DNA from: Rhodohalobacter sp. 614A
GTDB taxonomy: Bacteria > Bacteroidota > Rhodothermia > Balneolales > Balneolaceae
Direction of reading: 5' to 3'
Length of the DNA stretch: 64,000 bases
Assembly: GCF_021462415.1 (NCBI RefSeq)
Contig: NZ_JAKEDS010000002.1
Coordinates: 930,001-994,000, forward strand
In this document: positions 24,347 through 38,855 of the stretch, one piece after another
How the letters are laid out: each line of letters begins with the position of its first letter
Position numbering within the stretch: the first letter of the stretch is position 1
Translations under genes and position numbers: made by a program
The notes under the pieces: model-generated
The model's input: only the letters and a program-made list of their open reading frames with translations
Told to the model about the DNA's origin: nothing
Database searches by the model: none

Positions 24347-25039
24347 TTACACAGACCAATTTGATGACGCCTCGGAAGCATCGTTTTTCTTCTGTTGTTC
24401 AAGCATATCAACAAGCGAAAGTCCCGTATTCCATTTCTGATCTCTGTCTCGCACGGAATGGATGTTGTTTTCTTCCTGGAAGTCCCAAAATTGGCCAAAC
24501 TGGTTATTTTTATATTTTTTCAAAAAATCGAGCCGTTCTTTCAGGTCTTCTTTCGGCACCAAAAGGCGGCTTTTGTCATACACTGCATCCTCTCTTGATT
24601 CAAAAACAATGTCGTAATCCTTACTCATCACAATCGCTTCTTCGGGGCACACTTCTTCACAATATCCGCAGTAAATACATCGCAGCATATTAATCTCGAA
24701 TACATTTGGATATCGCTCTTTTGGATCATCAGCTTTCTCATCGGCCTGCATACTGATTGCCAACGGTGGACAAGCACGTGCACAAAGGCCACAAGCCACA
24801 CATCTCTCCTGTCCGTCATCTTCCACCAAAACCGGACGCCCACGAAATATATCCGGCGGACTCCATTTCTCTTCAGGATAATTCAAAGTAAATGATGGTG
24901 CAAACATCTGTTTAAAAGAATACCAAAGTGCTTTTAGGATTTCCGGGATGTAAAGCTTTTCAAGAAATGATAATGTGCGCTCCCGTTGGTAATCTTCACT
25001 TAGAGCATTTGCTACCGGCTGATCAAGATTATTCTGCAT
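24347..25039 (-). CDS. nuoI: NADH-quinone oxidoreductase subunit I (TYKY)
   Basis: A 230-residue ferredoxin-like subunit of complex I carrying clusters N6a and N6b. The two four-cysteine motifs are [12 protein letters not shown] (from Cys80) and [12 protein letters not shown] (from about Cys121), and the segment after RGRPVL precedes them as in NuoI. An extended C-terminal tail (about 165-230) with coil-rich sequence is longer than in E. coli NuoI (180). No other nuo gene is in the window: it lies between der and a DinB-like gene. The full motif pair argues for function rather than decay. Confidence 0.9.
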
Positions 25040-33069: not shown

Positions 33070-35061
33070 TTACTTTGCCTTCTGCACGCTTTCACTCTCC
33101 TCCACCAATAGCCACGGCTCTAAATAGTCTTTCTCGATATCCTCGATGAACCGTGACGGATTGGTAAAATAATCTCCATAGCGACTTTGAAAAAGCGCGG
33201 GATAGGTTATAAAAAGCTGTTCTTTGGCACGGGTGACGGCCACATACAAAAGCCGAATTTCTTCATCCATCTGTTCTTCATCTTCGATGGCGTAACCAGA
33301 TGGCAAAATTCCATCCAGACATTGGATGAGAAATACGGTGTGCCACTCCAATCCTTTGGATGAGTGAATGGTACTGAGAATCAGCGGGGATTCATCTTTT
33401 TCAGTCGCTTCAGTATCAATGGCGGTGGCTTCAATCGGATCGAGGGCGATCTCTTCGATCATTTTTTCGAGTGATTTATACGTTCCGGAAATATCCACAA
33501 ACGTCTCCAGATCTTTCATGCGTTTGGGATGATCATCAAACCGTTTCTTGCAGAATTTTTCGTAATAATCGACAACAGCCTGTAATTGTTCGGGTACAGA
33601 ACCATCCAGTTTTTTGAGCTGTGAAAAGAGATCGCCCAACGCTTTCAATTGTTTTAGATAACGGTCGCTGATATTTGGTGCCTGATCCGGTCGATACGGA
33701 TTCCCTCCTGTCTGAGCCCAGGAAAACAGATCTTCAGCCGTTTTCGGACCGATCCCATCAATCAGCATCAACACCCGGTTCCACGCAATGGTGTCTTTCG
33801 GATTGATCATCACCCGCAAATGTGCCAGCACGTCTTTAACATGAGCAGCTTCCGTGAATTTTTGTCCGCCATATTTGATGTATGGAATATTCTTTTTGTT
33901 GAGCATCACTTCCAGGTCAAACGAATCTCGTCCGTTTCGAAACAGGCAAGCGATGTCGTTCAGTTCATATCCTTGCTCCCGCAAATTCAGAATCATCTGT
34001 GTGATAAACCGGCTTTGATCATTCATATTTGCCGCTTTCACCAGTCCGGGCAGATCTCCCTCTTCGTTGATCGTATACAGTTCTTTTTCAAACTTCTCGC
34101 CGGCTTGTTTCAATACACGATTCGCCACATCCAAAATTCGCTGCGTAGAGCGATAATTCTCTTCCAGTTTGATGATTTTCGTATCCTCAAAAAGATCGGG
34201 ATATCGCATCATATTTTTATGATCGGCACCGCGAAACGAGTAGATACTTTGGGCGTCATCCCCGACAGCCATCACATTATTATGAACGCTGCTGAAGAGT
34301 TGCGTGAGTTCGGCCTGGAGAGCATTTGTATCCTGGTATTCGTCTACCAAAACGTGTTTGTGCTGTGCCGCCACTTTCTTCCGAACCTCCGGCTGGTCAC
34401 GCAGTAGATCCCGTGTTTTGACCAACAGGTCGTCGAAATCCATCACGAAATTTTGTTCTTTGTAGGCAGCATATTTATCAGCAAGCAGTTCGATGGTTTC
34501 AGTATAATTCACAAACTGCGGGTACTGCTCTTCAATTACATCGCGGACAGTCATCTGCTTGTTGACCGATGTACTGAAAATATTATAGAGCGTAGATTTC
34601 TTGGGAAACCTTTTTTTCTTCGTGGGAATATCCATCTGGCTTCGGACCAGGTTCACGGTGTCCATCGCATCACCGGCATCGATAATGGTAAACTGCTCTG
34701 GATAGCCGATTTTCTCTGCATAGCGATGAAGAATCTTGCTGCAGTAATGGTGAAACGTCCCTCCTTCCACACGCTGACACCGTTCGTCCAAAATCTGGCT
34801 GGCACGACGAAGCATCTCGCTGGCGGCACGACGTGTAAAAGTGAGAAGCAAAATCTGTGTCGGGTCCACCCCGCTTTCCACAAGACGTGCCACCCGGTAG
34901 ACCAGCGTTCGGGTCTTTCCGGTTCCCGCCCCGGCCACAATGAGCGCCGAACCCTCATCAAACATGACCGCCTCCAATTGCGCCTCGTTGAGAAGGTCCC
35001 CATACTGAATGGAATACTCCGCGGGGGTGATATCTTCTTGGGACAGGACAAATTTCTTCAT
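33070..35061 (-). CDS. UvrD/Rep-type superfamily 1 DNA helicase
   Basis: A 663-residue helicase. Motif Q/I region: LNEAQLEAV and the Walker A AGAGTGKTRTLVYR at about 44-57; Walker B is LVDEYQDTNALQ near 231-242; motif III is DDAQSIYSFRGAD; motif IV is EENYRST; C-terminal motifs V and VI are STIHSSKGLEWHTVFL near 566-581 and LLYVAVTRAKEQL near 607-619. The size fits a compact UvrD/PcrA without a long C-terminal tail. The role is likely DNA repair/replication restart. Monocistronic, divergent from the channel gene. Confidence 0.92.
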   Translation of the reverse strand: MKKFVLSQEDITPAEYSIQYGDLLNEAQLEAVMFDEGSALIVAGAGTGKTRTLVYRVARLVESGVDPTQILLLTFTRRAASEMLRRASQILDERCQRVEGGTFHHYCSKILHRYAEKIGYPEQFTIIDAGDAMDTVNLVRSQMDIPTKKKRFPKKSTLYNIFSTSVNKQMTVRDVIEEQYPQFVNYTETIELLADKYAAYKEQNFVMDFDDLLVKTRDLLRDQPEVRKKVAAQHKHVLVDEYQDTNALQAELTQLFSSVHNNVMAVGDDAQSIYSFRGADHKNMMRYPDLFEDTKIIKLEENYRSTQRILDVANRVLKQAGEKFEKELYTINEEGDLPGLVKAANMNDQSRFITQMILNLREQGYELNDIACLFRNGRDSFDLEVMLNKKNIPYIKYGGQKFTEAAHVKDVLAHLRVMINPKDTIAWNRVLMLIDGIGPKTAEDLFSWAQTGGNPYRPDQAPNISDRYLKQLKALGDLFSQLKKLDGSVPEQLQAVVDYYEKFCKKRFDDHPKRMKDLETFVDISGTYKSLEKMIEEIALDPIEATAIDTEATEKDESPLILSTIHSSKGLEWHTVFLIQCLDGILPSGYAIEDEEQMDEEIRLLYVAVTRAKEQLFITYPALFQSRYGDYFTNPSRFIEDIEKDYLEPWLLVEESESVQKAK

Positions 35062-35201
35062 GCCTTAAACTACAGAATTTTGTATATATGTAAAAAGTAT
35101 GGAAGATCTATTTTATTACCTCATTCAATAGTACTTGAATTACAGTATCATTCATTTCATTATGAAATTTCTAAATTCATTCATTTTTAATATTTAAAAG
35201 T

Positions 35202-36437
35202 ATGGTCGACAAAAAATCTAGTATTTCATATGAAGATTTTATTTATAAAAAAAACAGACTATATCGTTTTTTAAAAAATGGTTCAAAGGAAGTGGAGTAT
35301 CTTAAATCGCAAGCAAATGATTTACTTGAAGAAGTTCGTTACATATATAAAGATGAGGGAATTTCAGATCTACAATGGGTTGTCAATGTTTCTGAATTTA
35401 GAGAGTTTTACAACGGTTTAGAGTTCAACTATGATCGTGCTAAAACGGGAGGTTATCGTATTCATGACAAACGTATTCCATATAGGAATCATATTTATAA
35501 GATGGATTATAAGTTATGGGATAGACTTTATAGAAATGGAGTTTATTCAATTTATGACTGTGAGTTAGAAATCGATGACTATCATCTAAGAAACATAGCT
35601 TACTATAATTTTTTATATCATTATTCAAACACCGGTTTATTCCAACTTAGACCGCTGGGAATATTAAGCTATCACTTTGAAAATACCTCTCAAGTTAAAT
35701 CATACGATGACTGTATTAGTTTAGCCTCACGCTATTTGAATGCATACCATACACTCAAAAAGTATGAATATGATTTAAAGCATAGTAAATATTCAGATAA
35801 ACTAAAGATTCGAAGAGAGCTTATTGAAGGTGCAATAAAAACATACAAATATGCATATGACCGTGCTTTTGAAGCTAAAGACAATAGACTTCAGAGTATT
35901 TTTTACTTTCATATTATGAAATCAAAAGAGTTACTCAAAAAAGAGAATATCCATTATTATATAAGCAAATCAGGTAATTATGCCCGGATTAAGAATAGAT
36001 ATGATTCTAAGTTTTCACAATATTTATCCGAATATATATTTGGACAAACTGATTATTTTATAAATATCTTAAAATATCTGGGTCTTAAATTATTAAGATT
36101 ATTGTGTGGATATGGAGAGCGCCCTCAAAACGTAATTATTTCAGGGGCTTTAACTGTCCTTTTCTTTTCACCATTGTTTATGATTAATGGTATCAGAGTT
36201 AATGAAAAAGTTATTGATTACACTTTAGATGTTACTTCCTTTCCTACAATCAACTACGAATATCTTTCAGATATAGGTAATTCATTATATTTCAGCATGA
36301 TTACTTTTACTACTCTAGGTTACGGTGACGCAAGTCCTATTGGATTAAGTAAACTATTTGCATCGTTAGAATCTTTTTTTGGGGCTATCTTTATTTCATT
36401 GTTCATTTTTACTCTTGCGAGACAAGTACAACGATAG
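35202..36437 (+). CDS. Two-TM potassium-channel-like protein with a large N-terminal domain
   Basis: A 411-residue protein. The C-terminal end is an ion-channel module: a first membrane helix near 308-330, a pore helix and the potassium selectivity filter TLGYGD at 371-376, and a second helix near 388-407. The remaining 300 N-terminal residues are unusual: highly charged, Tyr/Lys-rich, with helical repeats (AYDRAFEAKDNRLQSIFYFHI) that may form a cytosolic sensor. Unlike most channels the cytosolic part lies before, not after, the pore. Codons are markedly more AT-rich than in the neighbours, suggesting transfer from another genome. Ion and stimulus are inferred only from the filter. Confidence 0.75.
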   Translation: MVDKKSSISYEDFIYKKNRLYRFLKNGSKEVEYLKSQANDLLEEVRYIYKDEGISDLQWVVNVSEFREFYNGLEFNYDRAKTGGYRIHDKRIPYRNHIYKMDYKLWDRLYRNGVYSIYDCELEIDDYHLRNIAYYNFLYHYSNTGLFQLRPLGILSYHFENTSQVKSYDDCISLASRYLNAYHTLKKYEYDLKHSKYSDKLKIRRELIEGAIKTYKYAYDRAFEAKDNRLQSIFYFHIMKSKELLKKENIHYYISKSGNYARIKNRYDSKFSQYLSEYIFGQTDYFINILKYLGLKLLRLLCGYGERPQNVIISGALTVLFFSPLFMINGIRVNEKVIDYTLDVTSFPTINYEYLSDIGNSLYFSMITFTTLGYGDASPIGLSKLFASLESFFGAIFISLFIFTLARQVQR

Positions 36438-36479: not shown

Positions 36480-36989
36480 TTGCTAACTCTCCTCAAACAA
36501 AGTCTCTGGAATCAATTTGGTGCAAGTATCGATATGGTTGAAAATGCCATTTCACATTACCCGGAAGAACTTTTAGAATCTAATAAACGGCTCTTCTACA
36601 ACATCTATCATACCCTGATCTTCCTGGATTACTACATGACGATTCCGTCAAAAGACTTTACGTCTCCTCTTCCTTTCACACTAAAGGAACCGGAGGAGAT
36701 TCCCGAAGAAGCATTGGATGATGTCATTCCTGACCGGTTCTACACCAAGACGGAATTACTGGATTATTTGCAGGTCAGCCGGGAAAAAGGCTACGAAATC
36801 ATTTCGAATCTGACCGAGAAAAAAATGTCTGAACGATTCATAGAAGAGGAAGAAGGCGGCAAGGATTATCCCTTCATAGAAATCCTGATGTACAACATGA
36901 GGCATGTTCAGCATCATGCGGCGCAATTAAATCTGATCCTAAGAAATGAAATTAATGATGCTCCAAAATGGGTTCGGCGGGCAAAGTAG
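36480..36989 (+). CDS. DinB-family protein
   Basis: A 169-residue four-helix protein. The typical marks are FYNIYHTLIFLDYYM (first His ligand) near 40-54 and NMRHVQHHAAQLNLILR near 139-155 (second His pair), giving a three-His metal site. DinB/YfiT relatives act as metal-dependent thiol transferases, some specific for bacillithiol; since bshC is present here such a role is possible but not shown. Start TTG at 36480; little Shine-Dalgarno evidence. Confidence 0.83.
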   Translation: MLTLLKQSLWNQFGASIDMVENAISHYPEELLESNKRLFYNIYHTLIFLDYYMTIPSKDFTSPLPFTLKEPEEIPEEALDDVIPDRFYTKTELLDYLQVSREKGYEIISNLTEKKMSERFIEEEEGGKDYPFIEILMYNMRHVQHHAAQLNLILRNEINDAPKWVRRAK

Positions 36990-37715: not shown

Positions 37716-38855
37716 CTATTCAACTGGTGAATCTGATGAAGAACTCACTTCTTCTTCCTTCGAATCACCATTCTCAGCTTTCAAATCCAGTTCAAACTTT
37801 TGTCCGTTTTCGTTTCTTACATAGATGGTTCGGGTTGGGAAGGCAATGTCAACGCCCATCTTTTCGAATCTTTCGTAAATCTGAAAATTGTAATCCTGCT
37901 GGATATCCATATACGTATTGAAATCCGCACTGTTGATGTAATAGCAAATCTCGAAATTCAGACTGGAATCGCCGAACGTTTTGAAGTGAGCCCGGTCAAA
38001 ATCAACAATATCCTGGGTTTCTACAATTTCTTTCAGCACGCCGGGAATCTGGCGGAGTTTGTCAGCAGGTGTTTCATACGTCACCCCAACCGAAAACACA
38101 ATACGGCGGCGTTGCATTTTCTTGTAATTATGGATGCGGGAATTCGTCAAGTCGGCATTGGCAAAAACCAACTGTTCTCCGGAAAGTGTCCGAATGCGCG
38201 TGGTTTTAATGCCGATCTTATCCACAATTCCGTTCTTATCATCAATGATTAAGAAATCTCCGATTTCAAAAGGTCGGTCAAAAAAGATCACAAAGTAGTT
38301 GAACAAATCGCCCAGAATATTCTGCGCAGCAAGGGCGATGGCAATACCTCCAATTCCAAGACCGGTGATAATGGCGGTGACATCGTACCCCAAATTATCA
38401 AACAGGAAAACAAAGCCGAGAGCCCAAATGATGATGTTGATGATCAGCATTACTCCGCCTAATTGTTTCACCTTTTCCTCTCCATTCTCCTGTCGTCTCA
38501 CATACTTTCGAAGAGCCAGAAGTACGATGCTGGAAACCAGTCTCACAGAGAAGTAGGTGAGAATTACGATGTAAGCCGCTTGTATGGCATTACTCACATA
38601 ATTACTCAAACTCAGCGTCATAACTGCAGCATAGATGATGCTGAAGTAAATAATCGGGATCACAAATCTATCAAAACTCTCAAAAACGTAATCGTCAATG
38701 TCATTTTCAGTTTCACCAATCCATTTCTCTATTCTCTTGAGTACAAATCGTTTGAAAACTTTCACAATAAAAATTCCAAGAATAATTGCTCCCAGAACCA
38801 GCAAATATTCCTGAACGGTGTTTCCGATAAAATTCTGACTTAAAAATGATTCCAT
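37716..38855 (-). CDS. MscS-family mechanosensitive channel
   Basis: A 379-residue membrane protein. Four hydrophobic helices (about 12-30, 58-78, 90-112, 133-155) lead to the pore helix with GLGIGGIAIALAAQNILGD near 165-183, then the MscS beta domain with FFDRPFEIGDFLII near 190-203 and the C-terminal alpha/beta vestibule domain with VSFSVGVTYETP (approximate) near 250-262. The Ser/Glu-rich tail is last. Such channels release solutes on hypo-osmotic shock. Confidence 0.93.
   Translation of the reverse strand: MESFLSQNFIGNTVQEYLLVLGAIILGIFIVKVFKRFVLKRIEKWIGETENDIDDYVFESFDRFVIPIIYFSIIYAAVMTLSLSNYVSNAIQAAYIVILTYFSVRLVSSIVLLALRKYVRRQENGEEKVKQLGGVMLIINIIIWALGFVFLFDNLGYDVTAIITGLGIGGIAIALAAQNILGDLFNYFVIFFDRPFEIGDFLIIDDKNGIVDKIGIKTTRIRTLSGEQLVFANADLTNSRIHNYKKMQRRRIVFSVGVTYETPADKLRQIPGVLKEIVETQDIVDFDRAHFKTFGDSSLNFEICYYINSADFNTYMDIQQDYNFQIYERFEKMGVDIAFPTRTIYVRNENGQKFELDLKAENGDSKEEEVSSSSDSPVE

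Follow-up and report, generated by a model that had tools for sequence, protein, structure and literature searches.

The stretch of DNA analyzed here (the window) comprises 64,000 nucleotides of the genome of Rhodohalobacter sp. 614A. An open reading frame on its forward strand, at 35202–36437, begins with ATG and encodes 411 residues, as the original prediction had stated; its Pfam match and composition point to an AT-rich gene for a two-helix K+ channel with a large N-terminal region. One flank is a conserved uvrD-family helicase gene (33070–35061, reverse strand), identified by Pfam and by a search of the genus. Downstream are a DinB-like gene (36480–36989, forward strand), which has a TTG start, a Pfam score below the cut-off and a match in none of the 27 other genomes of the genus, and, as the other flank, an mscS-type channel gene (37716–38855, reverse strand; Pfam and locus comparison) that is shared with the sister genome G421. 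A 180-residue protein with no Pfam match completes the neighborhood.

The 411-residue frame is a real gene; the longest chance frame in 500 first-order Markov sequences derived from the same region was 142 residues. Its GC content is 0.297, and its third-position GC of 0.229 is below that of every other gene among the 24 compared in the window, the next lowest being 0.313. Codon choice differs from that of the pool (chi-square per codon, z 8.0), which bears out the earlier description of an AT-rich gene with atypical codon use; the departure is at least as strong in susC (z 8.2) and uvrD (z 12.3), and a one-sided likelihood test of codon use did not flag the channel gene (z −0.3). GC is 0.298 in the part encoding residues 1–205, 0.267 in that for residues 206–295 and 0.319 in that for residues 296–411, and third-position GC is low in all three (0.239, 0.211 and 0.224). 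Since the AT bias is alike in all parts, composition does not divide the N-terminal from the channel half. Promoter-like and terminator-like sites near the gene showed no telling excess over shuffled sequences (7 vs 9.5 and 2 vs 0.6, respectively). Low GC can also arise without transfer; the gene was probably acquired.

The channel module and the N-terminal region

The only Pfam domain of the protein is Ion_trans_2 (residues 355–410, 7.1e-13, 48.7 bits against a cut-off of 22.5), and the two-helix pore as a whole occupies residues about 296–411. Alignment, the AlphaFold2 model and hydropathy agree on the Ion_trans_2 layout of TM1, pore helix, TxGYG filter and TM2. Within the module (36108–36434, forward strand) a GYGERP motif at residues 303–308 leads into TM1 (308–329), followed by the pore helix (352–369), the filter (370–376) and TM2 (383–410), which in the model ends at residue 410/411. 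The predicted C-terminal TLGYGD pore is thus confirmed as a TTLGYGD filter, from which K+ conduction and selectivity may be expected. Segments of 19 residues with a mean hydropathy of at least 1.6 start only at residues 310–391, and the highest value ahead of residue 273 is 0.42.

The AlphaFold2 input was a 45-sequence alignment with the relatives trimmed to their last 175 residues, so that the N-terminus had no partner, and the model has an overall pLDDT of 64.8 and a pTM of 0.45. From residue 291 on, block means are 72–96 and TM1, pore helix, filter and TM2 are all present. Residues 1–160 gave block means of 31–61 and residues 161–260 of 58–76 (31–69 over residues 1–200), and a single-sequence fold of residues 1–300 was unusable (mean pLDDT 38.9). 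Structure prediction, which had been proposed as a check, therefore delivered the pore but no usable model of the N-terminal part. Pore-confined matches to chains of SthK, KirBac and KcsA superpose on the model at 1.8–3.3 A over 83–89 residues; the NaK matches superpose at about 12 A over 102–103 residues. At the level of sequence, whole-protein matches to the PDB all begin at residue 347 or later among the best 60 of 109.

The N-terminal region (residues 1–205, 35202–35816, forward strand; its end is uncertain, between residues 205 and 245) appears from the searches and the model to be an orphan with helices predicted at low confidence. As described earlier, residues 1–300 are rich in Tyr (13.0%) and Lys (10.3%). 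The linker that follows (residues about 206–302, 35817–36107, forward strand) is predicted to be helical and partly resembles the linker of pentapeptide-repeat channels, as judged from a phage-protein profile, phrog_15350, the relative in genome G053 and hhalign; the segment ahead of TM1 aligns differently in the phrog_15350 match, in hhalign and in the family alignment. The claim that 300 residues were of unknown kind therefore holds for residue 1 to about 205–245 but not beyond, where the phrog_15350 profile covers the protein from residue 244.

The orphan character of the N-terminal region was upheld in every collection searched. Residues 1 to about 205 have no Pfam or PADLOC match and no NCBIfam match over the cut-off, and residues 1–300 match no PDB sequence up to E 10 and nothing in 72,556 plasmid records; among the 243 other genomes of the class they have no credible match. 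They also gave none in 271 genomes of the order of G371 and 279 of the family of G053, searches that had no positive control and whose emptiness is uninformative. In the libraries searched this part did not match a known metabolic sensor; such a match would, according to the original prediction, have counted against it. When the full-length protein was searched against 394 genomes of the phylum, scoring at most four candidates per genome, 46 had a match (own genome included); apart from that of G053 (232–406), none of the other matches begins before residue 290. Eight plasmid records match the whole protein, all from residue 306 or later.

Several weak candidates were rejected. Matches to the N-terminal part in nine other genomes of the class, four of them genus-mates (10 places, E 0.0085–0.091), were judged to be chance, with stops in 6 of the 10. 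Also taken as chance were NCBIfam PRK06762 at residues 207–293 (E 0.16), phrog_19681 at residues 160–193 (E 0.24) and phrog_32132 at residues 97–135 (E 4.7). An internal repeat in residues 1–300 was dismissed (off-diagonal score 39, equalled by 149 of 200 shuffles), and the first-ranked VIA-align hit, a designed protein over residues 165–257 with Z 12.1, is at the level of chance helical matches. Phage origin was discarded after tblastn of the whole protein found no match in 50,697 phage records, and two scans of viral contigs (1 and 61 pattern matches) confirmed none.

A single occurrence among the genomes searched and a low GC are what a decaying or non-functional gene might show. We regard this as very improbable, given the 411-residue open frame, the intact filter and GYG..P motif, and a third-position GC that is low throughout the gene.

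Relation to pentapeptide-repeat channels

The channel half of the protein belongs to a family whose other members nearly all carry pentapeptide repeats. The phrog_15350 profile matches residues 244–410 (1.9e-25) and also matches two pentapeptide channels, L065 (residues 122–303, 2.2e-37) and L031 (146–320, 2.3e-28). Its last third corresponds to the linker and channel of L065, L031 and L082, and its earlier part matches pentapeptide arrays. When genome contigs were scanned with the query aligned to three relatives, there were at least 596 pattern matches and at least 421 confirmed relatives, from several phyla; the best 80 were kept by likeness to the pore of the query, so that the range of N-termini is undersampled. 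The nearest relative, L068, is 43–45% identical over the pore. Across 45 aligned sequences 17 columns are invariant, including Y304, G305, Y363, T368–D376, P379, E390 and G394, and the CGYGExP..TTLGYGD..R half is aligned when the profile is compared by hhalign with that of 53 relatives. In a tree of 62 sequences the query groups with L082, L002 and L003 on long branches, a placement flagged as unreliable.

Like these channels (phrog_15350 type; PF00805/PF13599/PF13576 with PF07885), the query has CGYGExP before TM1, TTLGYGD and a C-terminal TM2, but it does not have their N-terminal pentapeptide domain. By a loose pattern, 79 of the 80 relatives have a run of at least three pentapeptide-like units ahead of the pore; the longest run is one in the query and one in L103, whose frame is short. 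Of six family members tested, two of which (L031 and L002) are not among the 80, five have Pfam Pentapeptide domains and the sixth, L002, has the channel alone; the query has no such match up to E 1. The N-terminus of the query scored a probability of 0.45% against the pentapeptide-family profile in hhalign, and on this and the run of one a pentapeptide N-terminus was rejected.

Many of the relatives are chromosomal, and neighboring gene clusters recur around them, the largest in 27, 24, 22, 21 and 21 of the 80 loci, counts that are inflated by near copies since many of the loci are from Pseudoalteromonas. Such recurrence speaks for vertical inheritance of the family in those groups. Vertically inherited housekeeping homologues had been named as evidence against a defence effector; the chromosomal setting and recurrent neighbors seen in many loci provide part of such evidence for the channel half, not for the N-terminal half. 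The same observations, with the mscS gene nearby, would suit a family member serving in osmotic or K+ homeostasis whose N-terminus had diverged beyond recognition and had not been replaced. We consider this unlikely, as the query retains no pentapeptide trace and genus-mates have no credible match. Among the matches listed in the open-licence literature there was no functional study of the pentapeptide-repeat K+ channel family, which does not prove that none exists.

Two further proteins deserve mention. L014 (G371:C10, same phylum) is a second unusual architecture in which, as in the query, a long N-terminus precedes the pore; in L014 about 330 residues, helical-looking by eye and without pentapeptides, come before a similar channel with SYG and TLGYGD. 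The two N-termini align with a score of 60 against a shuffled mean of 50, and 26 of 200 shuffles score as high; a TPR-like kinship was rejected on this count. In G195 a pentapeptide protein (L041:139–1689) has a similar linker and KYGE..P, with the TxGYG filter absent by eye from its hydrophobic C-terminal portion, and is a possible filterless cousin of the pentapeptide channels.

The site between uvrD and mscS

UvrD-family matches occur in all 28 genomes of the genus, with an orthologue or part of one in 23 (own included) at 66–100% identity. No credible match to the channel gene was found in the genus-mates, in keeping with the orphan status first proposed. We compared positions 25001–46000 of the window with 11 relative loci (L162–L172). 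Similarity upstream of uvrD stops at 35072–35117 in all comparable loci (the contig of L169 ends there), and within the stretches compared it resumes only in L162, at mscS (37698). The edge of the conserved sequence lies at about 35088–35102, where the window shares the last conserved bases, ATGTAAAAARYATG (35088–35101), with 10 of the 11 loci, L172 being the exception. This pattern, chosen after the fact, occurs once in the window, where 0.06 occurrences would be expected. It is partly palindromic, and its sequence raises the question of an operator, a promoter or a recombination site.

In L162, from the sister genome G421, the uvrD–mscS interval encodes a nucleotidyltransferase and a HepT-like protein, both over the Pfam cut-off, and then contains a second copy of the start of uvrD, 161 bases long and 90.7% identical to the first. 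The MNT/HepT pair thus sits between the uvrD start and its second copy (L162:8974–10245), an arrangement such as an element might leave by inserting at the 5' end of uvrD and bringing or duplicating that end. Within the window no second copy like that of L162 was found, only chance matches of 10–11 bases. This toxin-antitoxin-like pair and the partial uvrD copy in the sister genome indicate that gene content turns over at the site. By eye, the neighbors in more distant relatives resemble ordinary genes of metabolism or translation, and plain rearrangement therefore accounts for some of the variation. The DinB-like gene perhaps belongs to the same variable segment as the channel gene. In G199, another sister genome, the same site (L163:9396–11367) encodes two proteins that match nothing in Pfam and, by eye, contain hydrophobic stretches.

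Proposed gating and a possible role in defence

Our best explanation, to which we give a probability of about 70%, is a horizontally acquired K+ channel that combines a channel half of the pentapeptide family with a different N-terminal region that senses a stimulus and gates the pore. The protein would be a tetrameric, K+-selective two-helix channel. Its gene would have been gained horizontally where gene content turns over between uvrD and mscS; the channel half would have been joined to its present N-terminus by domain replacement. A C-terminal sensor domain is impossible because the predicted TM2 ends at residue 410/411, and gating from the N-terminus is proposed because the only extra mass is that of the N-terminal 300 residues. 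Hydropathy gives these residues no membrane span, and by analogy with two-helix channels they are expected to be cytosolic. The large N-terminal region, a sensor by its position, would respond to a ligand, a protein or a state, and its conformational change would be coupled to TM1 through the segment ahead of it, thereby opening or closing the pore.

In the well-studied ligand-gated prokaryotic K+ channels (MthK, KirBac and SthK) the sensor follows TM2. The query shares the two-helix pore fold and filter with NaK, KcsA, SthK and KirBac but, unlike these comparison pores, has nothing after TM2 and carries its extra mass at the N-terminus; the C-terminal RCK, CNBD or Kir domains of comparison channels are absent from it. 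The query and its pentapeptide relatives, with their extra mass ahead of TM1 and their end at TM2, thus contrast with MthK, KirBac and SthK.

The original prediction proposed a check for defence-island neighbors, and the matches listed did not support their presence. PADLOC matched 62 families over 51 window frames but gave nothing for the channel protein, and the best 25 families comprise a mads_8 model with two members and, with a single member apiece, one RTasHel (DRT) model and models of GajB "UvrD helicase". The RTasHel and GajB matches, given without the name of the matched member, are taken to be the conserved uvrD.

In Hailong the HalA ion channel is said to be blocked by poly-dA adducts of HalB (PMC13275509), and oligonucleotides modulating ion channels in defence are mentioned in another report (PMC12483538). 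In Foldseek HalA (9nyi_A) ranked sixth with a probability of 0.99, an E of 0.054 and an rmsd of 18.3 A, against a model that is poor in its N-terminal part; no match in the list reaches 0.001, and most are ordinary K+ channels. HalA was not among the best 60 of 109, the best 60 of 283 or the best 60 of 172 solved-structure sequence matches, which is no proof either way. The HalB nucleotidyltransferase adjoins the channel gene in Hailong, whereas by Pfam no HalB-like nucleotidyltransferase is among the immediate neighbors of the query. The likeness to HalA, an ion channel like the query, may serve as a lead and is no test of Hailong membership.

A stand-alone phage-defence effector comparable to HalA, whose N-terminal region would sense infection and open the pore so that the membrane potential collapses, would be compatible with our best explanation and would add a role to it. 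An AT-rich gene with no credible match in genus-mates, a turnover site with an MNT/HepT pair in the sister genome, the HalA fold match and the reported blocking of HalA would all suit such an effector. We nevertheless hold it to be rather unlikely, as PADLOC has no match, no nucleotidyltransferase lies next door, HalA is absent from those best 60 sequence matches and Foldseek gives similar scores to many ordinary K+ channels. With no nucleotidyltransferase next door and a weak HalA match, we have classed the protein not among defence systems but as a putative K+ channel with a pentapeptide-family channel half and a different N-terminus.

More speculative still, and quite improbable in our estimate, is a single-gene K+ channel triggered by phage or damage, in which residues 1 to ~205 would form a new kind of sensor domain and the GYGExP module would be a portable effector on varied N-termini: that of the query, the long one of L014 and pentapeptide repeats. 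A family member with a different N-terminus is a means to ask what the channel module responds to.
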